Source: Chloroflexota bacterium
GTDB lineage: Bacteria; Chloroflexota; Chloroflexia; Chloroflexales; Roseiflexaceae
DNA length: 33,220 nucleotides
NCBI GenBank assembly: GCA_018969485.1
Contig: JAGWYG010000031.1
Coordinates: 1-33,220, forward strand
Reading direction: 5' to 3'
The notes beneath the pieces are model-generated. The model made no database searches and was not told the DNA's origin. It worked only from the letters and a program-made list of their open reading frames with translations. A program made the position numbers and the translations under genes. This document shows positions 1 through 33,220 of this stretch, one piece after another (within the stretch, counting starts at the first letter, position 1; every line of letters starts with the position of its first letter).

Positions 1-66
1 CGGGGGACGGGGGACGGGGGACGGGGGACGGGGGACGGGGGACGGGGGACGGGGGACGGGGGACGG
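1..66. repeat. Heptanucleotide tandem repeat (CGGGGGA)n
   Basis: About nine head-to-tail copies of the 7-nt unit CGGGGGA run from the first base to about position 66. Each unit has a run of five Gs, so the plus strand could form G-quadruplexes. The array is truncated by the window edge, so its true length is unknown, and such arrays often end assemblies. Confidence 0.9.
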
Positions 67-87
67 GCTCACACGAAGGCACGAAGG
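62..87. repeat. Dispersed ACGAAG-type repeat, left copy
   Basis: Positions 62-86 are identical over 25 nt to the last 25 nt of the window (33196-33220). The core is ACGAAGGC repeated after a GACGGGCTCAC lead. The same family fills 33090-33220. It is non-coding and looks like a dispersed intergenic repeat. Confidence 0.8.
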
Positions 88-112
88 AGTGGGCGACAAG
101 ATTCCATCCTGT

Positions 113-150
113 GTTTCTCTCTCCTCTCTTCTACCTCCTACCTCCCTCAG
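113..150. repeat. Polypyrimidine tract
   Basis: Nearly pure C/T run (purine-rich on the minus strand) with short CTACCTC direct repeats. It begins at the 3' end of the minus-strand gene ending at 147 and lies between it and the terminal repeats. It has no hairpin, so a classical terminator is not evident. Confidence 0.55.
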
Positions 151-530
151 GTTCGCGATCGCCGCCCGGCCTCGGCGGCTGATGATGCCAGCAGCCGCGC
201 CCCCCAGTCGACCAGCGTCAGCATGCCCTGGGCCGAGCGCGGTGCGCTGCGGCTCCAGCGGTAATTGCGACCATGATAGGCCGTCATCTGGGCATCATCG
301 ACGACGATGACGCACACCCGGCCGACCCGCTGGAGTTGCCGGAAGAGTCGGAGCACGATGGTATCGGAACGGGCGATCGCCAGGATGACAAACTCAGGCA
401 TGGACTGCGCGACATACTGGTATGCACTCGCAGTGTGATCGATGCTGCGAAGCACAACATGGTCGTCGAGCAGGTGAAACAGGTCGCGGTCATCCTCGAT
501 TGACCATCCGATGATGCAGGCATTCAACAT
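147..530 (-). CDS. Small receiver-like (pseudo-receiver) hypothetical protein
   Basis: 127 aa. I do not recognise a named family, but the pattern resembles a two-component receiver domain: a hydrophobic first strand (residues 4-8), an acidic cluster E12-D13-D14, a third strand PEFVILAIARS (45-55), and a fourth strand VCVIVVDD (72-79). The phosphoacceptor Asp expected in the third strand appears to be Ala51, so phosphorylation is unlikely if the fold assignment is right. There is no output domain. The start ATG at 530 has no clear Shine-Dalgarno sequence. Amino-acid composition is protein-like, unlike the antisense Arg-rich frames. It stands alone, about 620 bp from the next gene. It could also be a decayed fragment of a larger regulator. 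Confidence 0.5.
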   Translation of the reverse strand: MLNACIIGWSIEDDRDLFHLLDDHVVLRSIDHTASAYQYVAQSMPEFVILAIARSDTIVLRLFRQLQRVGRVCVIVVDDAQMTAYHGRNYRWSRSAPRSAQGMLTLVDWGARLLASSAAEAGRRSRT

Positions 531-1151
531 TTGGCGACGTGCCCTGTGCTTCGCGGCACTAGCAAGACAGTCTGCTCACGTGTCGCTCCGACGCATCGTG
601 TGCGGCGTCGTGACGACGCGACACGTACGATGCGAGGTTGCCGGTTACGTCCTGGTAACGTTACAGCGACTGTTCTCATCATAACAAGTCTGTCAAGGGG
701 TGCGGCGATGCACGAGGTTTGCGCCCGTGGCCTGCGGGCAGGTCGTGCGGCACGCAGTGAGTGGGGGGCAGCGGCCACGCCGCAGCAGCCGGGGGCATGG
801 CTGCCCGCTCTCACGGCGCACGGGAGCGACAGGGGGCACGGTGCGCTGCCGCGTCCTCGAAACTGGCCATGGCGCGGCGCTCGCAGCGGTTGATACGGCA
901 TCTGCGTGCGCCAGCGGCTGCAGGAGCGGCGTCGCACGCCACGGGCGGGCACATCTGGCTCGCGACCGGCAGCAGCGTGCCAGCACCCGGGGATTGCCCC
1001 AGGTGGGGCTGGCAGCGCCAGGTGACGGTGACGACACGTCGACGCATCTGGTGCCAGTGAACGCACGATTGCGCCCGATCGATGCGGGACAGGCACCGCC
1101 CGGCAGCGCGCGACACGGCGATGCGTCCGTCGACGAGGATCGATCAGGCGC
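531..1151. other. Gene-poor stretch, no convincing coding sequence
   Basis: Open frames exist on both strands but are Arg/Ala/Pro-rich, overlap each other and match no family I recognise. A short plus-strand stretch near 990-1060 reads like a degraded Cys-rich transposase zinc motif (CPRWGWQRQ...WCQ followed by a stop), which is too weak to call. Apart from the GTTAC cluster near 650, I see nothing definable. Confidence 0.5.
644..664. promoter_or_regulatory. GTTAC inverted-repeat cluster, possible operator
   Basis: Three GTTAC half-sites lie within 21 nt: GTTAC at 644-648, its inverse GTAAC at 655-659, and GTTAC at 660-664; the last two abut as the perfect palindrome GTAACGTTAC. A minus-strand TTGACA (691-696) and TATGAT (678-683) lie nearby but are not at standard promoter spacing. 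The site is about 115 bp upstream of the minus-strand gene starting at 530. Regulatory function is inference. Confidence 0.3.
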
Positions 1152-2570
1152 CTACGGGGTGCACGACAGCGCCGCACCGGCACGCTGCTGCTCGAGCAGC
1201 GTGATCGCCAGGACGACATGCGGATCTGCCTCGAGCGGATACTCCCAGTATGACGCCGTCAGGGCGCAATCCGGCTGGACACCGACATCCTCGATCGACA
1301 CGCCATCGGGCGGCAGATAGACATACTCGGCGAGCCACAACCGCGAACCATCACTGAAATCATGCGGCACAATGTTCTCGGTATTCCCCGAGGTTGGTTC
1401 GCCGACCAGCACCGCACGCTGGTTGGCGCGCATGCCGGCGGCGAACATCTCGCCGGCACTGGCCGTGCCATCGCCGATCAGGATGGCGATCGGCACATCG
1501 CGCAGCGCCGGGATGCGCTGATCGTCCGGGATGAGCAGATCACGCACGCTGGTCGCACGCGAGCGCGTGACGCCGATCGATCCGCCATCGACGAACAGCG
1601 CCACGGTGTCGAGCAGATAATCGACGCGCCCGCCCGAATTGCCGCGCACGTCGATGATCAGCCCGTTGATTGGCGTCACGTCATCGAGCGGCGCGAGTGC
1701 GTCGCGGATCAGCGACTCGAGGTCATTGATGTTGAATGTGTCGAGCAGCAGCACGAAATAGCCTGACTGCGGCAGCGGGGTGAGCTCGACGACCGGAAAG
1801 GCATCCCCGGGGATGACCCCCCGGATCACCGTGACATCGAATGCCGCGGCGTCGCCGCGCCGGATGGTGAGCACCACCGGCGTGCCCTCGATGCCGCGCA
1901 CCCGTGCGATCGGGCCATTCGGGCCAATCGCATCGACGTCGAGCACATCGATCCCGTCGATGTGCGTAACCAGATCGAACGGGCGCAACCCGGCGCGTTC
2001 GGCCGGGCTGCTGCCGGCGATCCGCGTCAGCAGCACGCCCTCGTCGGTCTCGCGGACGAGCGCGCCGATGCCGACGTAGCGCTGGTCACCCTCGAAGCGC
2101 GCCAGATCTTCGGCGACCTGCTGCGGCGTCTGGAAGTGCGAGTGGTCATCGTCGAAGCGCCGGATCAGCTCGCTGAGCGTCGCGTAGAAGGCGCTGGTAT
2201 CGCCTTCGCGCACCCGCGCGCCATACTCCTCGCGGATCGCGGCCCAATCGAGGCCGCGATAATCCTCATAGACATACCGATCGGCCACGAGCTGCCATAT
2301 CTCCCCGAAGATGCGGCTGCGGCTGTCGGCATCCACCGGCACGACGGTCGGCGTGGGGGTGAGCGTCGGCGTCGGGCTGGGCGGCGCGTCCGGCACGACG
2401 GCCGTGGGGGGCAGCGTCGCACTCGGCGCGGGCGCGGGCGTCGCACTCGGGCGCTGTAGCGCCATGCGCGTCGGTGTCTCGGGGCGCACCGGATCATCAG
2501 GTGTGGGCCACGGCAGGCTGCAGCCGACGATCAGCACCGCGAGCAGACCGGATGTGAGCCAGCGATTCAT
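1152..2570 (-). CDS. S41-family (C-terminal-processing-like) peptidase, lipoprotein
   Basis: 472 aa from the ATG at 2570; an upstream in-frame extension to 2723 lacks signal-peptide character. Residues 1-17 form a lipoprotein signal with LIVGC, so Cys17 is probably lipidated and the enzyme acts outside the membrane. A Pro/Thr-rich linker (about 28-80) follows, then an N-terminal helical region, a PDZ domain (about 165-250) and the S41 core. The nucleophile motif GTASAGE places Ser371. In CtpA-type enzymes a Lys lies in a GExTfGKG motif; here the aligned segment is GEPTSGNTE and the Lys position is Asn396. The protein may therefore use a different dyad or be inactive. Other S41 subfamilies use different catalytic sets. 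A minus-strand TATACT at 2712-2717 is a candidate -10 box. It follows the MFS gene with a 204-bp gap, so is probably a separate unit. Confidence 0.9.
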   Translation of the reverse strand: MNRWLTSGLLAVLIVGCSLPWPTPDDPVRPETPTRMALQRPSATPAPAPSATLPPTAVVPDAPPSPTPTLTPTPTVVPVDADSRSRIFGEIWQLVADRYVYEDYRGLDWAAIREEYGARVREGDTSAFYATLSELIRRFDDDHSHFQTPQQVAEDLARFEGDQRYVGIGALVRETDEGVLLTRIAGSSPAERAGLRPFDLVTHIDGIDVLDVDAIGPNGPIARVRGIEGTPVVLTIRRGDAAAFDVTVIRGVIPGDAFPVVELTPLPQSGYFVLLLDTFNINDLESLIRDALAPLDDVTPINGLIIDVRGNSGGRVDYLLDTVALFVDGGSIGVTRSRATSVRDLLIPDDQRIPALRDVPIAILIGDGTASAGEMFAAGMRANQRAVLVGEPTSGNTENIVPHDFSDGSRLWLAEYVYLPPDGVSIEDVGVQPDCALTASYWEYPLEADPHVVLAITLLEQQRAGAALSCTP

Positions 2571-2774
2571 GGATTGCTTGCCTTTCGGCGCGAAGGCCCG
2601 GCGGCGCCAGGAGGAGCACCCTCGACCGGCCCTTGATGCAGCGCTCTGGTCCGTCGCGGCTCTGCGCCCGCACCGATGACCGGGGCCCGTGCGGCACACC
2701 CCGCTGGAAACAGTATACACCATGCGGTCGGCCGGAACAGGGCGGCATCGTACGGCGCCGTGGCGCCATGCCGG

Positions 2775-3941
2775 TCAGCGCTGTGCCACCCGGCGGATCA
2801 GCAGCAGGAGCGCGACGCCGCTTGCACCGACCGAGACCAGCGCCATCTGGAGCCCATAGCGCACTGCGACCGCGCCGATCACCGGCGGGACGACGATGAA
2901 GCACAGGTAGGCCGTCGCCATGATCGCCCCGGTGATGGCGCCTGATTGCCCCGGCGCGACGCGCGCCGCCGCGCTGAGCACCGTCGGGATCACGCCGGCG
3001 ACGCCGATGCCGCATAGTGCGAATGCGACGATCGCGACCCACAGCAGCGGCTGCGGCAGCATCAGCAGCACGCCGGCGATCACCAGCAGCACGCCCGAGA
3101 CCACCAGCGACACGCGCGGGCCCCAGCGGGCGACCAGCGGAGCATTCAGCAACCGGCCGGCGAACATCGTGGCGTTGAACAGCGCGAAGGCGGCGCCGCT
3201 CGCCAGGACGTCGGCGCCGAGCTGCTGGAGATAGATCACCGACCAGCCGATGGCGACGCTCTCGCCGACGACACCGAGCAGGCCGATCAGCGCCAGCCAG
3301 GCGATCGCCGGCACGGTCAGGATGCGCAGCGCCGCGAGCGGCGAACTGCTGTCGCCGCCGGTCTCGGGAGCATACGTGATCGGCAGGGTGGCCAGCAGCG
3401 CGATGGCGGTCAGCCCGGCGATGGCGTACAGCAGCTCCTGGTACGTCCAGCCGGCCTCGAGGAGCGCGCCTGCCAGCAGCGCACCGATCACCGCGCCCCC
3501 GCTGAACCCGGCATGCATCGCATTCATCACCGACCGGCCAGTGGCGTGTTCCCAGTCGAGCGTGGCGCTGTTGATCACCATCTCGAGTGCGCCGAATGCG
3601 ACCCCCTGCAGCAGCACCGCGCCGATCAGCGCCCAGAACCCATCGGCGCGCGCGGTGGCGATCATCGCGACGCCGAGGAGCGCCAGCCCGGCCAGCGCCA
3701 GGCGCTTCTTTCCCGTGATGGCGACCAGCGCGCCGCCGGCGAGCAGGATGACGGTCGCGATCAGCGGTGACGCGAGCTGGGCATTGCCGATATCGGCCTC
3801 GTTCAGCCGCAGGGCCCGCATGATCTCGGCCCACAGCACGCCGTAGGTGCTGACGGTGATGCCGAAGAGCAGCATGTAGCCCGACAGCAGGACGATGACG
3901 GGCCACGGGCGCCAGGGGCGCATGACGGACGACGTGTTCAC
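2775..3941 (-). CDS. Major facilitator superfamily transporter
   Basis: 388 aa with about twelve hydrophobic segments from residue 12 to the C-terminus and a short basic end (LIRRVAQR), the normal size of a compact MFS permease. The basic loop after the second segment (TGKKRLALAG) fits the MFS cytoplasmic 2-3 loop. The start is GTG at 3941, directly after the TAA stop of the upstream dehydrogenase, with AAGGGACG just upstream, so translation is probably coupled. An alternative ATG lies at 3923. It is the last gene of the four-gene minus-strand cluster and probably moves that pathway's substrate or product across the membrane. The substrate cannot be read from sequence; a fucose/sugar or aromatic-acid MFS are both possible. 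Confidence 0.88.
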   Translation of the reverse strand: MNTSSVMRPWRPWPVIVLLSGYMLLFGITVSTYGVLWAEIMRALRLNEADIGNAQLASPLIATVILLAGGALVAITGKKRLALAGLALLGVAMIATARADGFWALIGAVLLQGVAFGALEMVINSATLDWEHATGRSVMNAMHAGFSGGAVIGALLAGALLEAGWTYQELLYAIAGLTAIALLATLPITYAPETGGDSSSPLAALRILTVPAIAWLALIGLLGVVGESVAIGWSVIYLQQLGADVLASGAAFALFNATMFAGRLLNAPLVARWGPRVSLVVSGVLLVIAGVLLMLPQPLLWVAIVAFALCGIGVAGVIPTVLSAAARVAPGQSGAITGAIMATAYLCFIVVPPVIGAVAVRYGLQMALVSVGASGVALLLLIRRVAQR

Positions 3942-4976
3942 TTACGTCCCTTCGGCTGGTGCGGCGACGCCATGCAGCAGGCCGCATTCGACAATCAGAT
4001 GCCAGGTCGTGTCGTCGAGCGGAATGCCGCTGTGCTCGCGCACATGCCGTGTGCGCCGCTCCGGCTCGCCGGGGAGCATGACTGCTGCAAACCCGGGGGC
4101 GGGCGGAACCGCGACGACCCGCGCGCAGAAGGCGGCGACGTCGGCGGCATAGGCCGCCGGGTCGCGGAAGGCCGCCGGGTCGAGCACGATGAACAACACC
4201 CCGTTGCCACCGGGAATGACGTCGCCGGGCGTTTCGGCGAGCACGCCGCCGAGCAGTTCGACCAGCAGCGCCAGCGCGTACCCTTTGTGGCCGGCCATCG
4301 GCAGCAGCACACCGCCGCGGTAAAAATCCCCGGGGTCGGTCGAGGGGTGTCCGGCCGCATCGAGGATCAGGCCGGCAGGGATCGGCTGGCCCTGGTTGAA
4401 GGCGATGCGCAGCTTGCCCTCGGCGACGGTGCTGGTGGCGAAGTCGACGACGATCGGCGCGGCGCCGGCGTGCGGGATGGCGGCGGCCACCGGATTGGTG
4501 CCGAGCGCGCGCCCGGCGCCACCATGCGGCGCGACCGGCCCCAGCGGCCGGCCGGCGTTGCAGAATGCCAGCCCGATCAGCCCAGCGGCGGCGGCGAGCT
4601 CGACCCACTCGCCCATGCGGCCGGCATGGCTGCAGCGCTCGATGGTGACCGCCGACAGGCCGTGGCGCTGTGCCCGCCCGATCGCCTCGCCGATCGCGAC
4701 GCGCGCCGCCAGCTGGCCGAACCCGCGCTGCGCGTCGATGACTGCCACCACGCCGCGCTCGCGGGCGACGTATGGCACCGCGGCCGGGTCGGTTTCGCCA
4801 CGGGCGATGCTGGCGAGATACTGCGGTACGCGCACGACGCCGTGCGAATCATGGCCGACGAGGTTGCTGGCGACGAGCGATTCGGCGACGGCCGCGGCGT
4901 GCGGCGGCGGGGCGCCGGCGGCGGCGAAGATCTGGCCGACGTAGCCGGCGAGCGGCGCGGGCATGACCAGTGGCAT
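3942..4976 (-). CDS. Ldh2/MDH2-family NAD(P)-dependent 2-hydroxyacid dehydrogenase
   Basis: 344 aa, the usual length of the malate/L-lactate dehydrogenase (type 2) family, which also contains ureidoglycolate, sulfolactate and 2,3-diketogulonate dehydrogenases. Family motifs are intact: GHDSHGVVRVPQYL at 41-54, SHAGRMG with the probable catalytic His117, GTNPVAAAIP at 159-168, and AGHKGYALALLVELLGG at 228-244. The ATG at 4976 is chosen over an upstream one at 5006 because AGGAGA sits 4 nt before it. The stop abuts the GTG of the MFS gene. With the cupin and LLM oxidoreductase upstream it probably oxidises or reduces a 2-hydroxy/2-oxo acid in a catabolic route; the exact substrate is not determinable. 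Confidence 0.93.
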   Translation of the reverse strand: MPLVMPAPLAGYVGQIFAAAGAPPPHAAAVAESLVASNLVGHDSHGVVRVPQYLASIARGETDPAAVPYVARERGVVAVIDAQRGFGQLAARVAIGEAIGRAQRHGLSAVTIERCSHAGRMGEWVELAAAAGLIGLAFCNAGRPLGPVAPHGGAGRALGTNPVAAAIPHAGAAPIVVDFATSTVAEGKLRIAFNQGQPIPAGLILDAAGHPSTDPGDFYRGGVLLPMAGHKGYALALLVELLGGVLAETPGDVIPGGNGVLFIVLDPAAFRDPAAYAADVAAFCARVVAVPPAPGFAAVMLPGEPERRTRHVREHSGIPLDDTTWHLIVECGLLHGVAAPAEGT

Positions 4977-5042
4977 GATGTCTCCTGTGCTGCCATATCG
5001 TACCATGCCCGCGGGCGGGCGCAGCCCGGTGGGCGGCGGCGA

Positions 5043-5507
5043 TCACGCCGGCTGGCGGGGCGGGATGCCGTCGCGCGTCCGCGCATCCGACGGGTGATCG
5101 ATGATGCGGTCCCACTCGTCGGCGGCCGAACGCGCCACAACCGCCACCAGTGGCCCATCGCCGATGTTGTAGACCTCATGTGGGATCCCTGGCTCGATGT
5201 AGATGAAATCCCCCGCCTCGTTGTCGACGCTGTGCTCGAGGTCGGCGCCGAAGATGTGCCGCACGCGCCCTTCGAGGATGAACAGCATCACCTCGAATCC
5301 GTCGTGGATGTGGGCATACGCCACGGCGCCCGGCGGAACCGTCGCCACATTCATCGAGAGGTCGCGGGCGCTGGTATTGCGCGCCGATAGCCCGGTCTTG
5401 TAGCGGATGCCATTCCAGGCGCGGCTGGTCGGCCCGCCGCCGCGGATGACGTGGACGCCCGGGTGTGGTTCGACATACTGCCGCAGATCGTCGTCGTGCG
5501 TGGTCAT
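5043..5507 (-). CDS. Cupin-domain protein
   Basis: 154 aa from the ATG at 5507, chosen because AAAGGA lies upstream at suitable distance; the longer frame to 5558 lacks this. Residues 48-128 form one cupin barrel. Motif 1 is AHIHDGFEVMLFILEG with H66, H68 and E72, and motif 2 is GDFIYIEPGIPHEVYN with H110, so all four usual metal ligands are present. Small cupins of this kind act as isomerases, dioxygenases or metabolite-binding proteins. It lies 47 bp after the LLM gene and 66 bp before the dehydrogenase start, in the same orientation, so it is probably co-transcribed and acts on an intermediate of that pathway. No specific function can be assigned. Confidence 0.88.
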   Translation of the reverse strand: MTTHDDDLRQYVEPHPGVHVIRGGGPTSRAWNGIRYKTGLSARNTSARDLSMNVATVPPGAVAYAHIHDGFEVMLFILEGRVRHIFGADLEHSVDNEAGDFIYIEPGIPHEVYNIGDGPLVAVVARSAADEWDRIIDHPSDARTRDGIPPRQPA

Positions 5508-17692: not shown

Positions 17693-19182
17693 GCGACGAG
17701 CAGTGGGACGGCGCGCAGTTCGCGCAGGCGCTGCACATGGCAGCGCGCCACATCGAGGTCCATCGTGCCTACCTGGACGGGCTGAACGTCTTTCCGGTGC
17801 CCGACGGCGACACCGGCACCAACCTGGCGCACACGCTGCGCGGCATCGTCGCGGCGCTCCCGGCATCCGACGCCCTCGGCGGGGTCGCCCGGGCGCTGGC
17901 CGACGGCGCGCTCCAGCATGGGCGGGGCAACTCCGGGATCATCCTGGCCCAGGCGCTGCGCGGGCTGGCCCAATCGCTGGCGCACGCGCCGACGCTCACG
18001 GCTGGCGATCTGGCCGCCGCACTCCGCGCCGCCTCGTGCGCTGCCGACGCCGCCGTCGCCAGCCCGGTCGACGGCACCATCCTGAGCGGCATCCGCGCGA
18101 CGGCCGCGGCGCTCGATCCCGCGCCCGCCAGCCTGGCGATCGCGCTCGAGCGCGCCTGGCACGCCGCACGGCAGGCGGTCGAGCGCTCGCCCCAGCAGCT
18201 CGCCGTGCTGCGCGAGGCTGGCGTCGTCGATGCCGGCGCCCATGGCTGGGCGCTGCTGCTCGAGGCGTGGGCCGCGCTGGCCCACGGGCGGCCGCTGGCG
18301 GCCACCGCGCCGCCGCCACCCCGGCCGCGGCGCAGCGCCGCCGGCCCGGCCGGCTATTGCGTCAACCTGATGATCACCGCCGCCGAGATCACGCCCGAGC
18401 AGGTGCGCCGCGCGCTGGCGCCACTGGGCGACTCGCTGGCGATCGCCGGCACCGCACCGCGCATTCGCGCCCACCTGCACACCGCCCACCCCGGCCAGCC
18501 GCTCGATGCCGCCGCCGCGCTCGGCGAGCTCGACCGCATCGAAATCCAGAACATGGCGCAGCAGTGCCGCCAGCAGCGCCACCGCACCGACGACCTGCCG
18601 CTCGGCCTGGTCGCAGCCGTCGCCGGCGATGGATTTGCCGCGCTGCTCGGCGCGCTCGGCGCGACGGTCGTGCCCGATGGCGCTGCGGGCGATGCCGCGA
18701 TCGCCGAGGCGCTGCTGGCCCGCGCCACGCAGCCGGCGATCGTGCTCAGCGAGCGTCGCGCCGCCTGGTACCAACTCGGCCCCGCGCCCATCGCCTGGCT
18801 GCCCTGTGCCACGCCGGCCCACGCGCTCGCCGCCGCGCTCGCGTTTGATGCCCACGCGACGCTCGCCGAGGCCGCCGCGACGATGCGCGCCGCACTGGCG
18901 CGCGTCGCCGTCGCCAGCATCGATATCGTCGGCACGCGCGCACTGCTCGTCGGGCCCGACGGCAGCATCACCGATGATGCCGTCGATGCGCTGCTCGATG
19001 GCTGTGCCACGCACGCCTGGCTCGATGACGCCGAGCTGGTGAGCATCTCCACCGGCGCCGCCGCGTCACCCGACGAGGTGCTGCGGCTGTGCGCCGCCAT
19101 CGCGCGCCATCGCGCCACACCGCGCATCGTGACGCTCGACGGTGGCCAGGCGGCGCCGCGCTATCTCCTCGCCATCGAATGA
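17689..19182 (+). CDS. fakA: Fatty acid kinase subunit A-like (DhaL-domain) protein
   Basis: 497 aa. FakA phosphorylates fatty acids bound to a FakB (DegV) partner to make acyl-phosphates for membrane lipid synthesis. The N-terminal DhaL domain (about 5-200) has the Mg-ATP motif NVFPVPDGDTGTN with Asp39 and Asp41, HGRGNSGIILAQALRG at 77-92 and GVVDAGAHGWALLLEA at 178-193. A Pro-rich linker (208-214) leads to the middle domain, where Cys224 and the His pair of RAHLHTAHPG (H262, H264) correspond to the zinc ligands known in staphylococcal FakA. The C-terminal domain follows. The GTG start overlaps the stop of the Asp23-like gene. Two degV/fakB genes directly downstream support the assignment. 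Confidence 0.9.
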   Translation: MSDEQWDGAQFAQALHMAARHIEVHRAYLDGLNVFPVPDGDTGTNLAHTLRGIVAALPASDALGGVARALADGALQHGRGNSGIILAQALRGLAQSLAHAPTLTAGDLAAALRAASCAADAAVASPVDGTILSGIRATAAALDPAPASLAIALERAWHAARQAVERSPQQLAVLREAGVVDAGAHGWALLLEAWAALAHGRPLAATAPPPPRPRRSAAGPAGYCVNLMITAAEITPEQVRRALAPLGDSLAIAGTAPRIRAHLHTAHPGQPLDAAAALGELDRIEIQNMAQQCRQQRHRTDDLPLGLVAAVAGDGFAALLGALGATVVPDGAAGDAAIAEALLARATQPAIVLSERRAAWYQLGPAPIAWLPCATPAHALAAALAFDAHATLAEAAATMRAALARVAVASIDIVGTRALLVGPDGSITDDAVDALLDGCATHAWLDDAELVSISTGAAASPDEVLRLCAAIARHRATPRIVTLDGGQAAPRYLLAIE

Positions 19183-19209
19183 GCGACCAGAGCAGTAAGG
19201 ATGGATCCT

Positions 19210-20061
19210 GTGTCACGCATCAAGATCGTCACTGACAGCACCTGTGACATCCCGCTGGGCGTCGCGCACGACCTCGGCATCGAGATCGTGCCGATGACGC
19301 TGTATGATGACGAGCACACGTTCCGCGCCGGCATCGACCTGACCAACGAGCAGTTCTATACGCTGCTCACCGAGGAGCATGCCGAGTTGCAGGCGCAGTC
19401 GCCCACCGCGCTCCAGTTTCGCCAGGTATACCGGCGGCTCGCCGGCGAGTACGACTACATCTACTCGATCCACCTGTCGAGCCGGCTGGGCGGCGTCTAT
19501 CAGGAAGCCGTGCAGGCGCGCGCACAGATGCCCGCCTCGGCGACGCGCATCGAGATCATCGACAGCAAGCTGGCATCGATGGCGCTCGGCCTGGTGATCG
19601 AGCACGCCGCCCGCGCCGTGCGCGACGGCGCGACGCCGGCACAGCTCACGTCGCTGATCGGGCGGCTGATGCAGCACTGCCACATCGTCTTCTTCGTCGA
19701 TACGGTGGAGTATCTCGAACGCAGCGGCCGCCTCGGCCTGGCGACGGCCGTGCTCGGCTCGATGGCGCGCATCAAGCCGCTGATGCTGCTCGACGACGGC
19801 GAGATCGTGCCGTACGAGCGTACCCGCACGCGCGCCAAGGCGATCGAAGGGCTGTTCACCTTCATCGAGGACTTCCCGAGCGTCCAGGAGGTGGTCGCGC
19901 TGTTCTCGACGACGCCGGAGGATGTCGACAAGCTGCTCGACAAGGTCGAGCCGATCTTTCCGCGCGAGCAGGTGCGGATCGCCCAGTTCGGCCCGAGCAT
20001 CGGCGCCTATCTCGGGCCGGGCGCGATGGGGGTGGCGGTGTTCGAGGGCCTGGGCGGCTGA
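19210..20061 (+). CDS. DegV family protein (FakB-type fatty-acid-binding subunit), first copy
   Basis: 283 aa from the GTG at 19210; AAGGA lies 8 nt upstream of it, whereas an ATG at 19201 sits directly on that element. The start SRIKIVTDSTCDIP is the DegV signature, and the lipid-carboxylate-binding pattern continues with SIHLSSRLGGVYQ, DTVEYLERSGRLG and MARIKPLMLLDDGEI. The C-terminal GPSIGAYLGPGAMGVAVF closes the fold. DegV/FakB proteins hold a fatty acid and present its carboxylate to FakA. The gene starts 27 bp after fakA. It shares about the same architecture as the following degV but the two are clearly diverged, so they are old paralogues rather than a recent copy. Confidence 0.93.
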   Translation: MSRIKIVTDSTCDIPLGVAHDLGIEIVPMTLYDDEHTFRAGIDLTNEQFYTLLTEEHAELQAQSPTALQFRQVYRRLAGEYDYIYSIHLSSRLGGVYQEAVQARAQMPASATRIEIIDSKLASMALGLVIEHAARAVRDGATPAQLTSLIGRLMQHCHIVFFVDTVEYLERSGRLGLATAVLGSMARIKPLMLLDDGEIVPYERTRTRAKAIEGLFTFIEDFPSVQEVVALFSTTPEDVDKLLDKVEPIFPREQVRIAQFGPSIGAYLGPGAMGVAVFEGLGG

Positions 20062-20083
20062 TGTCCGGCGGTGGGAGGGGTCG

Positions 20084-20926
20084 ATGCTGCGAGTGGTGGT
20101 CGACAGCACTGCCGATGTGCCGCCGGGGTTGCGGGCGAGTGGCGCGCTGACGGTGGTGCCGGTGCTGTTGCATCGTGGTGACGAGACGCTGCGCGACGAT
20201 GTGGATATCAGCCGCGATGCCTTCTATGCCTGGCTGACGCATGCGGACGCATTGCCGCGCACGGCGGCGCCGACGGTGGGCATGTTCGCCGCGGCGCTGG
20301 GCAGCGCCGCGGCCGACGGCACGCCAGTGCTGGCGATCACGGTGTCGCAGGCGCTGAGCGCGACGTACGGTGCGGCGTGCCAGGCGGCGGCGCTGCTGCC
20401 TGCGGCGCAGATCGCAGTGCTCGACAGCCGGTCGATTGCGCTGCCGATCAGCTACCTGGCGCTCGAGGCGCTGCGGCTCGACGCGGCGGGTGCCACGCTG
20501 CCCGAGATCGTCGCGCAGCTTGAACGGCGGCGCGAGCAGACGATGGCGCTGGTGGCGCTGGATACGGTGCGCTACCTCGAACGCGGCGGCCGCATCGGCC
20601 GCGTGTCGGCGCTGCTCGGCGGGCTGCTCGACATCAAGCCGGTGCTCGCGGTGGCCGACGGCACGCTGCGCGCCGTCGACCGGCCGCGCACGCGGCGGCG
20701 GGCGCTCGAGCGCCTGGTCGACCTGGCGGCGGCGCAGGCGCCGTTCAGCCGGCTGGACGTAATGTACAGCACCGAGCCCGACGTGGCGGCGCGGCTGGCC
20801 GATGCGTGTGCCGCCGCCGGGCTGCATCCGCGCGCGCAGATCGGGCTGGTGCAGATCGGCGCGGTGCTCGGGGCGCACGCCGGGCCCGGCGCGCTCGCGA
20901 TCACTGCGCTGCGGGGCACCACGTGA
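20084..20926 (+). CDS. DegV family protein (FakB-type), second copy
   Basis: 280 aa from the ATG at 20084, preceded by GGGAGGGG. It has the DegV start LRVVVDSTADVPPGL, the segment ITVSQALSATYG, the motif DTVRYLERGGRIGRVSALLGG, and LLDIKPVLAVADGTL followed by basic RPRTRRR. The end GAVLGAHAGPGALAI matches the family. It lies 22 bp after the first degV and its stop overlaps the GTG of recG (GTGA). The ligand-pocket residues differ from the first copy (for example SQALSATYG against SSRLGGVYQ), which fits a different acyl-chain preference. That is inference. Confidence 0.93.
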   Translation: MLRVVVDSTADVPPGLRASGALTVVPVLLHRGDETLRDDVDISRDAFYAWLTHADALPRTAAPTVGMFAAALGSAAADGTPVLAITVSQALSATYGAACQAAALLPAAQIAVLDSRSIALPISYLALEALRLDAAGATLPEIVAQLERRREQTMALVALDTVRYLERGGRIGRVSALLGGLLDIKPVLAVADGTLRAVDRPRTRRRALERLVDLAAAQAPFSRLDVMYSTEPDVAARLADACAAAGLHPRAQIGLVQIGAVLGAHAGPGALAITALRGTT

Positions 20927-23430
20927 CCGCAGCAGCCGGCGCGAACCCCGCGCGCGAACAGATCATCCGCCTCGGCCATGCGCTCGTCGCCGAGCAGCGC
21001 CGTGACTATGACGACTGCGCCCATGCCGGCGGTCTCGCCGGGTTCCTGGCGGCGTGGCGCGCCGACGCCGACGCCGCACTGGGCCACGAGGCCGTCCGGG
21101 TGACGCTGGTGGCGCTGGCCGAGTATGCCGCCCTGCCCGCGGATGGGCGCCGCGAGCGCCTGGATGCGGCGATCGTGCGACTGCGCGCGCTCGTGCGCAG
21201 CCTGCCCGCCACGCTGGCGGCGCCACCGCCACGCCCGGCCCGCCGTGCCCGCGCCAGCCAGCCGGCGGCAGCCGCGCCGTTCACACTCGCGACGCCGCTC
21301 GATGCGGTCGAGAGCGTCGGCCGCCAGAATGCGCTGGCGTTCCGCCGCCTGGGCGTACACACGGTGCATGATCTGCTGTACCACCTGCCGCATCGTTACG
21401 ACGACTTCAGCAGCCAGCTGCCGATCGCCCGGCTGACCCCCGGCGCCGTCGCGACGGTGGTCGCCGAGGTGCGCGAGCTGCGCAGCTTCACGATGCGCGC
21501 CGGCGGAGGCGGCACCGAGGTGCTGCTCGCCGACGACAGCGGTGTGCTCAAGGCGGTGTTCTTCCGCCAGCCATGGCTGGCGCGCCAGCTGCGCCCCGGC
21601 ATGCGGCTGGTGGTGAGCGGCCGGGTCGAGCTGGCGTTTGGTGCGCGCCAGATGACCGGCCCTGACTGGCAGCAGGCCGACGCTGAGTTGCTGCACGCCG
21701 GGCGCATCGTCCCGGTGCATCCGCTGACCCGCGGACTGGTCGAGCGCAGCGCCCGCAGCGTGATCCGGCAGGTCGTCGAGCGGGCGGCGCCGCTGGTCGT
21801 GGATCATCTGCCCGAGGCGACGCGTCAGCGCGCCGGGCTGGTGCCGCTGGGCGAGGCATTGTGCCACGTCCACTTCCCGCCCGATCAGGCGGCGCTGGAG
21901 CGGGCGCGGCGCCGCCTGGGGTTCGACGAGTTCTTCCTGATCCAGCTGGGCGTGCTGCGCCGCAAGGCCGAGTGGCAGCAGGCGAGCGGGTATGCGATCG
22001 CCGACGCCCCCGCGGTGCATCGCGCGTTCCTCCAGCGCCTGCCGTTCGCGCCGACGCGCGCCCAGGCGCGCACCATCGAGGAGATCGGCGCCGATATGGC
22101 GCGGCCGGTGCCGATGGCGCGCCTGCTGCAGGGTGATGTCGGCAGCGGCAAGACGGCGGTGGCCGCGGCGGCGGCGCTGCGGGCGATCGCCGGCGGCTTC
22201 CAGGTGGCCTTGATGGCGCCGACCGAGATCCTCGCCGAGCAGCACTACCGTGGCCTCAAGGGGTTGCTGAGCGGCGTGCCGGTGCGCCAGCCGCCACCCG
22301 ACGACGGCGTCGCGTCGGCCGAGCGCCTGGCCGAGATCCGCGCGCTGCTCGGCCTGGCGTTCGAAGGCGATCTCGGCCCGGCCGGCGTGCGCGTGGCGCT
22401 GCTCACCGGCGGCCTCGGCGCGCGGGCGCGGCGCCGCGTGCTGGCCGCGCTGGCCCAGGGCGACATCGATCTGCTCATCGGGACGCATGCGCTGATCAGC
22501 GAATCGGTGGCCTATCGCCAGCTTGGTCTGGTGATCGTCGATGAGCAGCATCGCTTTGGCGTCGAGCAGCGCCAGCGCCTGAAAGACAAGGGGTTCAACC
22601 CGCACCTGCTGGTGATGACGGCGACCCCCATCCCGCGCACGCTGACGCTGACGCTGCACGGCGATCTCGATACGTCGATCCTCGATGAGCTGCCGCCCGG
22701 CCGCCAGGAGATCCGGACGCGCTGGATCCGCAGCGCCGACCGTGAGCGTGCCTATCGTCACATCCGCCGCGAGATCGCCGCCGGGCGCCAGGTGTTCGTG
22801 ATCTGCCCGCTGGTCGAGGAGAGTGAGAAGATCGATCTGCCGAGCGCCGAGGAGATGCACCAGCGCCTGTCGCAGGCCGTGTTCCCCGAGCTGCGCGTCA
22901 CGCTGATCCACGGCAAGATGGCGCCGCGCGACAAGGACGCGGTGATGGTGGCGTTTCGCAATCATGCGTTCGACATCCTGGTGGCGACGGCGGTGATCGA
23001 GGTGGGCATCGACATTCCGAATGCGTCGACGATCATGATCGAGGGCGCGGATCGCTTTGGCCTGGCTCAGCTGCATCAGTTCCGCGGCCGCGTCGGCCGG
23101 GGGCAGCATGCCAGCTTCTGCATCCTGGTGAGCGACCGCGACAACGAGGTGACGACGCGCCGGCTGCAGGCGATGGAACAGACGCGCGATGGCTTCCGCC
23201 TGGCGGAGATCGATCTTGAGCTGCGCGGGCCGGGCGAGTTCTTCGGCACACGGCAGTCGGGTACGCCGGACCTGAAGGTGGCGCAGCTGGCGGATACGCG
23301 CCTGCTGCTGACGGCGCAGCAGGAGGCGCGCCGCATCATCGAGGCGGATCCGACGCTGGCGCAGCCGGAGCATGCGGCGCTGCTGGCCCGGATCGAGGCG
23401 TTCTGGTCGGAGGGTGTGCAGTCGGGCTGA
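20923..23430 (+). CDS. recG: ATP-dependent DNA helicase RecG
   Basis: 835 aa from the GTG at 20923, which overlaps the degV stop. RecG drives regression of stalled forks and Holliday-junction branch migration. After a non-conserved N-terminal extension of about 125 residues comes the wedge/OB domain with LDAVESVGRQNALAFRRLGV and LLYHLPHRYDDFS. Helicase motifs follow: Walker A GDVGSGKT with Lys410, motif Ia APTEILAEQH, motif II DEQH at 540-543, motif III TATPIPRT, and motif VI QFRGRVGRG. The C-terminal LELRGPGEFFGTRQSG is the RecG TRG region. The last 49 codons are duplicated immediately downstream. Placement after degV genes is a common bacterial arrangement. Confidence 0.98.
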   Translation: MTAAAGANPAREQIIRLGHALVAEQRRDYDDCAHAGGLAGFLAAWRADADAALGHEAVRVTLVALAEYAALPADGRRERLDAAIVRLRALVRSLPATLAAPPPRPARRARASQPAAAAPFTLATPLDAVESVGRQNALAFRRLGVHTVHDLLYHLPHRYDDFSSQLPIARLTPGAVATVVAEVRELRSFTMRAGGGGTEVLLADDSGVLKAVFFRQPWLARQLRPGMRLVVSGRVELAFGARQMTGPDWQQADAELLHAGRIVPVHPLTRGLVERSARSVIRQVVERAAPLVVDHLPEATRQRAGLVPLGEALCHVHFPPDQAALERARRRLGFDEFFLIQLGVLRRKAEWQQASGYAIADAPAVHRAFLQRLPFAPTRAQARTIEEIGADMARPVPMARLLQGDVGSGKTAVAAAAALRAIAGGFQVALMAPTEILAEQHYRGLKGLLSGVPVRQPPPDDGVASAERLAEIRALLGLAFEGDLGPAGVRVALLTGGLGARARRRVLAALAQGDIDLLIGTHALISESVAYRQLGLVIVDEQHRFGVEQRQRLKDKGFNPHLLVMTATPIPRTLTLTLHGDLDTSILDELPPGRQEIRTRWIRSADRERAYRHIRREIAAGRQVFVICPLVEESEKIDLPSAEEMHQRLSQAVFPELRVTLIHGKMAPRDKDAVMVAFRNHAFDILVATAVIEVGIDIPNASTIMIEGADRFGLAQLHQFRGRVGRGQHASFCILVSDRDNEVTTRRLQAMEQTRDGFRLAEIDLELRGPGEFFGTRQSGTPDLKVAQLADTRLLLTAQQEARRIIEADPTLAQPEHAALLARIEAFWSEGVQSG
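23284..23430 (+). repeat. Direct repeat: recG 3' end, copy 1
   Basis: The last 147 nt of recG, including its TGA, recur at 23491-23637 with only four differences, all transitions. This copy is the one in frame with the helicase. Confidence 0.95.
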
Positions 23431-23637
23431 GTGGTGCGGGCATACTATCAGCAGAATACGCGGCTGTTCCACGTCATCGGCCGTGCGGCGCAGCTGGCGG
23501 ATACACGCCTGCTGCCGACGGCGCAGCAGGAGGCGCGCCGCATCATCAAGGCGGATCCGACGCTGGCGCAGCCGGAGCATGCGGCGCTGCCGGCCCGGAT
23601 CGAGGCGTTCTGGTCGGAGGGTGTGCAGTCGGGCTGA
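23431..23637 (+). pseudogene. Chimeric remnant: methyltransferase head fused to recG tail
   Basis: A 68-codon open frame begins with GTG directly after the recG stop. Its first 20 or so residues (VRAYYQQNTRLFHVIGRAA) copy the N-terminus of the methyltransferase at 23666; the remaining 49 copy the recG C-terminus. It results from tandem duplication of the recG/methyltransferase junction. The piece lacks the methyltransferase ribosome-binding site and ATG, and has no complete domain. It could be translated by coupling to recG, but I regard it as a by-product of duplication. Confidence 0.85.
23491..23637 (+). repeat. Direct repeat: recG 3' end, copy 2
   Basis: Second copy of the recG tail. The four transitions change three residues relative to copy 1 (Leu to Pro twice and Glu to Lys), as expected without selection. 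Confidence 0.93.
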
Positions 23638-23665
23638 GCGGTGCGGCACCGCGGCGAGGTGATCG

Positions 23666-24508
23666 ATGCATCCGGGTACTGCCGCGGTGCGGGCATATTA
23701 TCAGCAGAATACGCGGCTGTTCCGCATCATCGGCCGTGCGGCCGCGGCGCTGGCGACGCATCGGGCGGTCTGGAGCGATGGTGCCCGCACGCATGCGCAG
23801 GCGCTCCAGACGGTGAACATGCGGCTGGCGGCGCGCTGCACGGCGCTGGCGCACGCCAGCGGCCAGGTGCCGCGTGCGCTGGATCTGGGGTGTGGCGTGG
23901 GCGGCAGCCTGATCACCATCGCGCGCCACAGCCCGGCAGCGCTGGTCGGCGTGACGATCAGCGGCGCGCAGGCGCGCATCGCCGCCGCCGCCGTGCGTCG
24001 GCACCGGCTGGCCGAACGCTGCCACGTGCTCGAGGCCGACTATCACGCGCTGCCGCTCGCCGGGCCGTTCGACCTGATCGCCGCCATCGAGTCGCTGGTG
24101 CATGCCGCCGAGCCCGACCGGGTGTGGCGCGAGATCGCGCGGCTGCTGCGGCCCGGCGGCCAGGTCGTGCTGGTCGATGACGTGCTCGCCGCGGCGTCGC
24201 CCGATCATCCGCTGGCGTCCACCATGATGCGTGGCTGGTGCGCGCCGGCGCTGAGCTCGCCGCGCGCGGTCATCGCGCTGGCCGGGCGCCACGGGCTGCG
24301 CTGCTGCAGCGACGAAGACCTGACGGCGGCCACCCGGCCGCGCGCCGTGCCGTCGGCGCTGGCCGCGCTGGTGATCGCGCTGGGGCGCCGCGTGCCGCTG
24401 GCGGCGCGCCGGACGCACAGCCAGCTCGGCTCGATCGCGCTGCAGGCGGCCTTGCACGCCGGCGTGCTGCAGTACCGGCAGCTGGTGTTCGAGCGCGTGG
24501 ATGGCTGA
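23666..24508 (+). CDS. SAM-dependent methyltransferase (class I)
   Basis: 280 aa. Motif I ALDLGCGVGGSL at 71-82, GVTISGAQARIAAA at 95-108, FDLIAAIESLVHAAEP at 135-150 and LLRPGGQVVLVDD mark a Rossmann-fold class I methyltransferase. The I-S-x-x-Q after motif I and the E-S-x-x-H segment are like those of enzymes that methylate sterol, tocopherol or other isoprenoid-type small molecules. The N-terminal YYQQNTRLFRIIG is also family-like. The ATG at 23666 has GAGGTGATCG just before it. The head of this gene is duplicated upstream. Its stop is 5 bp from the stop of the converging glycosyltransferase. Substrate is unknown; an isoprenoid lipid is a reasonable guess from both neighbours. Confidence 0.88.
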   Translation: MHPGTAAVRAYYQQNTRLFRIIGRAAAALATHRAVWSDGARTHAQALQTVNMRLAARCTALAHASGQVPRALDLGCGVGGSLITIARHSPAALVGVTISGAQARIAAAAVRRHRLAERCHVLEADYHALPLAGPFDLIAAIESLVHAAEPDRVWREIARLLRPGGQVVLVDDVLAAASPDHPLASTMMRGWCAPALSSPRAVIALAGRHGLRCCSDEDLTAATRPRAVPSALAALVIALGRRVPLAARRTHSQLGSIALQAALHAGVLQYRQLVFERVDG

Positions 24509-29765: not shown

Positions 29766-31082
29766 TCACTCCGCCGCGCTCTCGCCGATGATCCCCTCGA
29801 GCAGCTGTTCGGTATACCAGATCTGCTCGTCGCTGGCAGTTGCGCCGTCGGCGAGATACTCGCTGCCGTCCTGGTAGTTCAGCGGGCCGGTGAACAGGTT
29901 CAGCTCGCCGCTGACGACCTGCTGTGTGAAGGTGGTCAGCGCTGCCGCGTTCTCGGCGGTCAGCCCCGGGCCCTGCACGAAGCCGATCATGCTGGTGTCG
30001 GGGTTGTTCATGTCGGCCACGTCGGGGCCGAGCCACTCCCACGTCGAGGTGAACGTGCCGGCGCGGGCGTCGGCGATGATCCGCGCGTACGATGGGCCCC
30101 AGTTGAAGTACGGTACGCCGAGACAGACGCTCTCGGCCACCGCGCACGCCCCCTTGAAGTCGTACGGTACGGCCCAGACGGTCTTGCCGGCAGCAGTCGC
30201 CTTGTTGGCCTCGACGATCGCCTCGGTGGTGTCGATGCCCGAGATGATCACGTCGCTGCCAGCGTTGATGAAATCGGTCGCGACGCGCGTGGGGTCCAGC
30301 GTGACGCCCGGGATGTTGAACCAGAAGCCGATCCAGACGACGTCGAACGCGAGACTGCCGGCCGGCTGCCCGCGTACCTGCTCCCAGCAGTGCTTCGCGC
30401 CCAGATACGTCGAGTTGACCAGCCGCCGCGTCTCGGGATCGATCAGCGCGCCGAGATACGAGAGTTTGCCGGTGCTCGACTGCAGCGCCGCCGCGCAGCC
30501 GGCGATCTGCTTGCCGATCTCCATCCGGCCCATCAGGTTGGTCAGGTTGGCGGGCGCCTCGCCCTTCAGGACGCTGTCGCCCGAGGCGTGCAGGAAGAAG
30601 ACGTCGGGGTGCGCTGCGGCCGCCTCGAGCGTGCCGTCGACGAATTCGGCTGAGTTGGTGATGATGAACCGCGCTCCCTGCGCGACGAGCTCGTCGACGA
30701 CTTGCGGTACGGTGACGTTCGGCTTGTCGGCGGGATTGACTTTGTCAATGTAGATGAATCGTGTGCCCGGCACATTGGCTTCGACGTACCGTGCGGCGTC
30801 GTAGTGCGCCTGGTTCCAGCCACCGTCGTTGATCGGGCCGACCAGGACCATGCCGAAGATGTATTCCCCGGCGGGGGCGTCCGGGGCGCTGGTGGGCGCT
30901 TCGGCGGGGGCGTCCGGGGCGCTGGTGGGCGCTTCGGCGGGGGCGTCCGGGGCGCTGGTGGGCGCTTCGGCGGGGGCGTCCGGGGCGCTGGTGGGCGCTT
31001 CGGCGGGGGCGGTCGGCGCACCACACGCCGCGACGGCGAGCAGCAACGCGATCAGGGCGGCCAGCAGGCGGATCGGAGACAT
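29766..31082 (-). CDS. BMP-family ABC transporter substrate-binding lipoprotein
   Basis: 438 aa. Residues 1-20 are a lipoprotein signal ending AVAAC, so Cys20 is probably lipid-anchored outside the membrane. Residues 27-70 are four perfect 11-residue repeats (AEAPTSAPDAP) that act as a flexible tether. From about 72 the BMP/Med fold follows: GMVLVGPINDGGWNQAHYDAA, the hinge segment ARFIITNSAEF, FLHASGD, MGRMEIGKQIAG, and GSDVIISGIDTTEAIVEA. BMP proteins bind nucleosides or related small solutes, and the D-x-G-W-N-x-x-H start of the mature domain is typical. The ATG at 31082 is favoured because AGGAG sits 9 nt upstream; another ATG at 31088 is only 3 nt from it. It heads the importer operon. 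Confidence 0.95.
   Translation of the reverse strand: MSPIRLLAALIALLLAVAACGAPTAPAEAPTSAPDAPAEAPTSAPDAPAEAPTSAPDAPAEAPTSAPDAPAGEYIFGMVLVGPINDGGWNQAHYDAARYVEANVPGTRFIYIDKVNPADKPNVTVPQVVDELVAQGARFIITNSAEFVDGTLEAAAAHPDVFFLHASGDSVLKGEAPANLTNLMGRMEIGKQIAGCAAALQSSTGKLSYLGALIDPETRRLVNSTYLGAKHCWEQVRGQPAGSLAFDVVWIGFWFNIPGVTLDPTRVATDFINAGSDVIISGIDTTEAIVEANKATAAGKTVWAVPYDFKGACAVAESVCLGVPYFNWGPSYARIIADARAGTFTSTWEWLGPDVADMNNPDTSMIGFVQGPGLTAENAAALTTFTQQVVSGELNLFTGPLNYQDGSEYLADGATASDEQIWYTEQLLEGIIGESAAE
30871..31002. repeat. Four perfect 33-bp tandem repeats inside the lipoprotein gene
   Basis: Four identical 33-nt units plus about 9 nt of a fifth. Each encodes 11 residues, so changes in copy number keep the reading frame. 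Full nucleotide identity, including silent positions, indicates recent expansion or homogenisation by slippage. Confidence 0.97.
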
Positions 31083-33089: not shown

Positions 33090-33220
33090 GCCGAAGGCAC
33101 GAAGGCACGAAGGGGCGGGAGACGGGCTCACACGAAGCCACGAAGACACGAAGGGACGGGAGGCACGAAGGCACGAAGAGACGGGAGGCGCGGGAGACGG
33201 GCTCACACGAAGGCACGAAG
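33090..33220. repeat. ACGAAG-type interspersed repeat cluster at right end
   Basis: Irregular copies of CACGAAGGC and variants, interrupted by GGGA(G)ACGGG stretches. A 17-nt unit GACGGGCTCACACGAAG occurs at 33121-33137 and again at 33196-33212, and a 25-nt version also occurs at the left end of the window (62-86). The cluster continues past the window edge. Spacers are not unique, so it is not a CRISPR array. Confidence 0.85.

Follow-up and report, generated by a model that had tools for sequence, protein, structure and literature searches.

The window, that is, the whole stretch of 33,220 nucleotides analysed here, is one contig (number 82) of the 4.0-Mb genome of an uncultured Chloroflexota bacterium, which is split into 247 contigs. 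Its forward strand carries a functional recG gene of 874 aa (20806-23430) that keeps its own original tail, followed by an intact gene for a class I SAM-dependent methyltransferase (MTase) of 280 aa (23666-24508), behind which lies a convergent glycosyltransferase gene. Both identities, which had been proposed in an earlier note on this DNA, are upheld by Pfam: recG matches DEAD, Helicase_C, RecG_wedge and the C-terminal domain-3 model RecG_dom3_C, and the MTase matches Methyltransf_11/25. Between the two genes, an open reading frame (ORF) of 68 codons (23431-23637) fuses an MTase head to a recG tail. Direct reading verified that this chimera, described earlier as in frame and starting right after the recG stop, is open throughout, with its GTG immediately after the recG TGA (0 nt between them). 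On the minus strand, a frame of 1025 aa (20572-23649) is open antisense to recG; it was not accepted as a gene, as such frames are typical of GC-rich coding DNA.

The chimera lies within a pair of duplicated units, whose copies were located by direct reading and by a repeat search. At an offset of 207, a 160-nt match links 23280-23439 to 23487-23646 with 97% identity, which is far above chance expectation for this length; at an offset of 253, a 57-nt match links 23433-23489 to 23686-23742 with 95% identity. The earlier note had reported that the recG tail (147 nt) and the MTase head (about 57 nt) each occur twice within 23284-23746; the double presence is confirmed and the span is accurate to a few bases. 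Because the copies are offset by 253 nt in one case and by 207 nt in the other, exactly 46 nt are absent from the upstream unit. Copy 1 of the unit comprises the recG tail and the start of the spacer (23280-23439) and is continued by the truncated upstream copy of the MTase head (23433-23489), which is devoid of the 46 nt, the ribosome-binding site and the ATG. The redundant downstream copy of the recG tail follows (23491-23637). The units stand head to tail, the segment being single in the congener described below, and the unit end is joined to the unit start at a microhomology of 3-4 nt (23487-23490), namely GGC, or GGCG if the MTase codon at this position was GCG, the codon of the congener. 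The two recG tails (23284-23430 and 23491-23637) differ at four sites, all transitions, exactly as had been noted: 23298/23505 (G/A), 23309/23516 (T/C), 23341/23548 (G/A) and 23384/23591 (T/C). Three transitions distinguish the MTase heads, at 23445/23698 (C/T), 23471/23724 (A/G) and 23473/23726 (G/A), and one more lies in the spacer (T at 23432, C at 23639).

In the intact downstream version, the segment that is missing upstream is bracketed by direct repeats. These had been given as GTGCGG at 23641 and 23687; the positions hold, but the repeat is 9 nt long, not 6, and reads GCGGTGCGG, with its first arm at 23638-23646, the end point of the deletion, and its second arm at 23684-23692. The 46 nt lost equal the spacing of the two arms, i.e., one repeat plus the interval, as slippage between them would leave it, and in copy 1 one GCGGTGCGG is left, altered by one later C-to-T change. 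A Shine-Dalgarno-like GAGGTG (23656-23661) and the ATG (23666) both map inside the missing segment, so the loss did take the ribosome-binding site and the start codon, as claimed before. A perfect inverted repeat of 10 bp has one arm, GCACCGCGGC (23646-23655), within the segment deleted upstream and the other, GCCGCGGTGC, at 23681-23690; its 25-nt loop contains both GAGGTG and ATG. Direct repeats flanking a hairpin are a documented substrate for replication slippage (PMC4134008). Here we only infer a contribution of the hairpin to the deletion, because its fold is not unusually stable for GC-rich DNA when compared with shuffled sequences (z of -0.24 as DNA and -2.0 as RNA). A programmed or regulatory hairpin around the MTase start was considered and rejected, as the RNA fold has only mild stability (z -2.0) and the congener has not kept the inverted repeat in perfect form. 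A search for a promoter or terminator within the duplicated stretch found none.

One congener was compared, the Chloroflexi MAG LaPlata_bin-0339 (G001, same genus; contig C116, CAIQIY010000116.1), which is fragmented into 710 contigs and 85% complete. It is colinear with the window both upstream (19084-23430 versus 1-4352, 88.6%) and downstream (23653-24495 versus 4412-5253, 86.6%) of the junction, with 94.9% identity of the recG protein over its last 374 aa and 87% identity between the MTase and its counterpart. In G001 the recG tail and the MTase head each occur once, and the 46-nt spacer can be aligned for the most part (from 23653 on), including GAGGTG and ATG. It thereby fits the relative with one copy and the spacer that had been predicted, and it also has the ribosome-binding site and start codon. 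The gap between recG and the MTase is 71 nt in G001 and 28 nt in the downstream unit of the window; therefore, another indel of about 43 nt, unpolarised, separates the two species. Searches for the junction elsewhere found none in viral contigs, and the one scan of genome contigs gave the congener only.

The 18 other family members with a readable recG (54 to 1,476 nt downstream) carry no relative of the MTase behind it. In one of them, G003, the next gene after recG is a convergent glycosyltransferase resembling the one behind the MTase here, with no MTase in between. Because of these arrangements, the recG-MTase neighbourhood seems specific to the genus, with the MTase (23666-24508) as a genus-specific insertion or move between recG and the convergent glycosyltransferase. 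A relative of the MTase was observed at another place in the G003 genome.

The congener also reveals which copy changed. G001 matches copy 1, the real end of recG and thus ancestral, at all four variable sites of the recG tail; therefore, all four changes arose in the redundant downstream copy, where one is silent (T) and three are missense (L to P, E to K and again L to P). Of the MTase heads, the truncated one holds the derived state at both missense differences (R to H and I to V); the intact one has a single derived change, a silent one, and no change fell in the functional recG tail. Such an asymmetry would be the expectation for one functional and one redundant copy. The changes in the chimera amount to five nonsynonymous and one synonymous. 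A missense share of five in six has a probability of P = 0.012 under recG constraint (missense fraction between the species of 0.31), P = 0.025 under MTase constraint (0.36) and P = 0.30 under neutral transitions (0.64), in a test that is weak, being post hoc and based on six changes and one congener. Within these limits there is no sign of purifying selection on the chimera protein, and the substitutions suggest drift or decay as a better explanation than constraint. The interest that the earlier note implied for the chimera is thus not upheld, as its substitutions look neutral. The changed recG residues sit at positions that vary among relatives, so conservation of the leucines was dropped as proof of non-function; proline occurs at these positions in no relative. 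As to age, the chimera has diverged by 3.4% (seven changes in 207 nt); at synonymous sites the two species stand about 0.30-0.42 apart, which makes 0.15-0.21 for each lineage. Provided that the chimera is neutral, the duplication would, as a rough estimate, be about one fifth as old as the split from the G001 species, which refines its earlier description as recent.

We consider it highly probable that the locus arose by duplication, loss of 46 nt and neutral decay of the inner pieces, which is the best explanation of these observations. A lineage-specific tandem duplication of 253 bp, sealed at the 3-4 nt microhomology, would have taken in 49 codons from the recG end, the spacer and some 26 codons from the MTase start. 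The upstream unit would subsequently, or in the same replication accident, have lost the 46 nt by slippage between the 9-nt direct repeats that bracket the 10-bp inverted repeat. Intact, functional genes would have persisted on the outside, recG on one flank and the downstream MTase on the other, with the redundant inner pieces drifting neutrally between them; these pieces, by chance in frame, would make up the 68-codon chimera with its GTG at the recG stop. Duplication of a 253-bp unit followed by the 46-nt deletion had been put forward as the simplest history, and the single-copy G001 with its spacer supports it, whether the two steps were successive or simultaneous.

The simultaneous version, a single complex replication event with two template switches in one pass, is a variant of this history and compatible with it. 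It would yield an identical final sequence, and microhomology or short repeats are present at both joints; two separate steps, however, require no special assumption, and as the sequence alone fits both, we regard the single event as possible but rather unlikely. With one congener, itself a fragmented MAG, the duplicate may also have been lost in G001 rather than gained here, a reading against which stands the lack of an MTase behind recG in the 18 other family members with a readable recG. The window furthermore derives from a metagenome-type bin of 247 contigs, and the 3% divergence of the copies falls in the range of strain variation, so that two strain alleles of one locus might have been placed in tandem by the assembly. 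The copies agree over at most 47 nt without a mismatch, however, and are therefore separable by k-mers or reads longer than that. Such an artefact would moreover need a novel junction with microhomology plus a 46-nt gap, and it is at odds with the asymmetry of the changes, four (three missense) falling in the redundant tail and none in the functional one, which makes it very unlikely in our judgement.

Under the preferred history of duplication, loss and decay, the chimera would most likely be a decaying by-product without a selected function, which may be weakly translated by leaky reinitiation at the GTG. Alternatively, it could be a new small protein with a function, or its translation could serve as a relay moving ribosomes from recG to the MTase: ribosomes ending recG would reinitiate immediately on the GTG and traverse the duplicated stretch. 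Termination-reinitiation is efficient at very short distances only (PMC10666635), a range that includes the 0 nt between the recG stop and the GTG, and the 68 codons are open and fused in frame with both parent genes. An in-frame fusion is nevertheless expected by chance in one of three cases, and five of the six changes are missense, with two of them replacing Leu by Pro. Between the chimera stop and the MTase ATG lie 28 nt, a distance at which coupling was largely lost in the tested E. coli pairs (PMC10666635), and the MTase retains its own GAGGTG and ATG. The chimera has no match in Pfam and no counterpart in G001, where the ORF after the recG stop lies in a different frame. A function of either kind therefore appears highly improbable to us, and annotators are cautioned against taking the 68-codon ORF for a gene, which it probably is not.

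The recG/MTase duplication is an ordinary mutational scar, though well preserved, and its mechanism is of a known kind. It resembles bacterial microhomology tandem duplications, which arise by illegitimate recombination or template switching, in its head-to-tail copy, short junction homology and lineage specificity; experimentally verified duplications in Salmonella have junction homologies of 11 bp and more (PMC3411829), compared with 3-4 nt here, and the present unit is very short. The deletion resembles replication slippage at a hairpin (PMC4134008) in its 9-nt direct repeats, the lost 10-bp inverted repeat and the one repeat kept, but the 10-bp stem with its 25-nt loop is modest, and the event is known here as an evolutionary footprint alone. 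Like gene-fragment pseudogenes from partial duplication, the locus has truncated redundant copies with missense-rich drift beside intact parents, whereas here two gene fragments were fused into one frame by the same event. It thus offers a readable example of how a short tandem duplication joins parts of two neighbouring genes into an in-frame fusion ORF, with the redundant parts decaying and the outer copies intact.

Similar repeats occur elsewhere in the genome. In a sample of 0.80 Mb (about one fifth of the genome), 13 non-microsatellite repeats of ≥ 60 nt and ≥ 88% identity were found at distances of 100-1500 bp; four of these reach the end of the scanned stretch, one of the four being a repeat inside a long ORF. 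Under the same selection, G014 gave 2 repeats in 0.38 Mb, G008 gave 12 in 0.40 Mb and G001 gave 0 in 0.10 Mb. As these sampled rates show no clear excess, for what is a heterogeneous class under unequal sampling, the idea of a burst of duplications peculiar to this genome was rejected. A close parallel (L070, 5069-5307/5307-5545; G000:C20) is a minus-strand gene whose tail is duplicated beyond the stop with a spacing of 238 bp and 97% identity; this duplication is single-copy in the congener, and five of its seven changes lie in the redundant copy, past the stop codon. Given this parallel and the other sampled repeats, the recG/MTase case belongs to a recurrent class. The L070 gene resembles a membrane-dipeptidase-type enzyme in its sequence and may encode one. 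A further gene-tail duplication (L057:1146-1752; G000:C1) includes the stop codon and spans 264 nt at 97% identity with a spacing of 343; its region was not found in the congener.

Within the window, 30869-31011 is a perfect minisatellite with a 33-bp unit in 4.3 copies. Both contig ends are simple repeats (window 1-67 and 33092-33220; a CGGGGGA heptamer and a CACGAAGG-type array). Arrays of the CACGAAGG type were also seen on other contigs of this genome (L063 and L075), and repeats also form many of the contig ends sampled, a probable explanation of the fragmented assembly.
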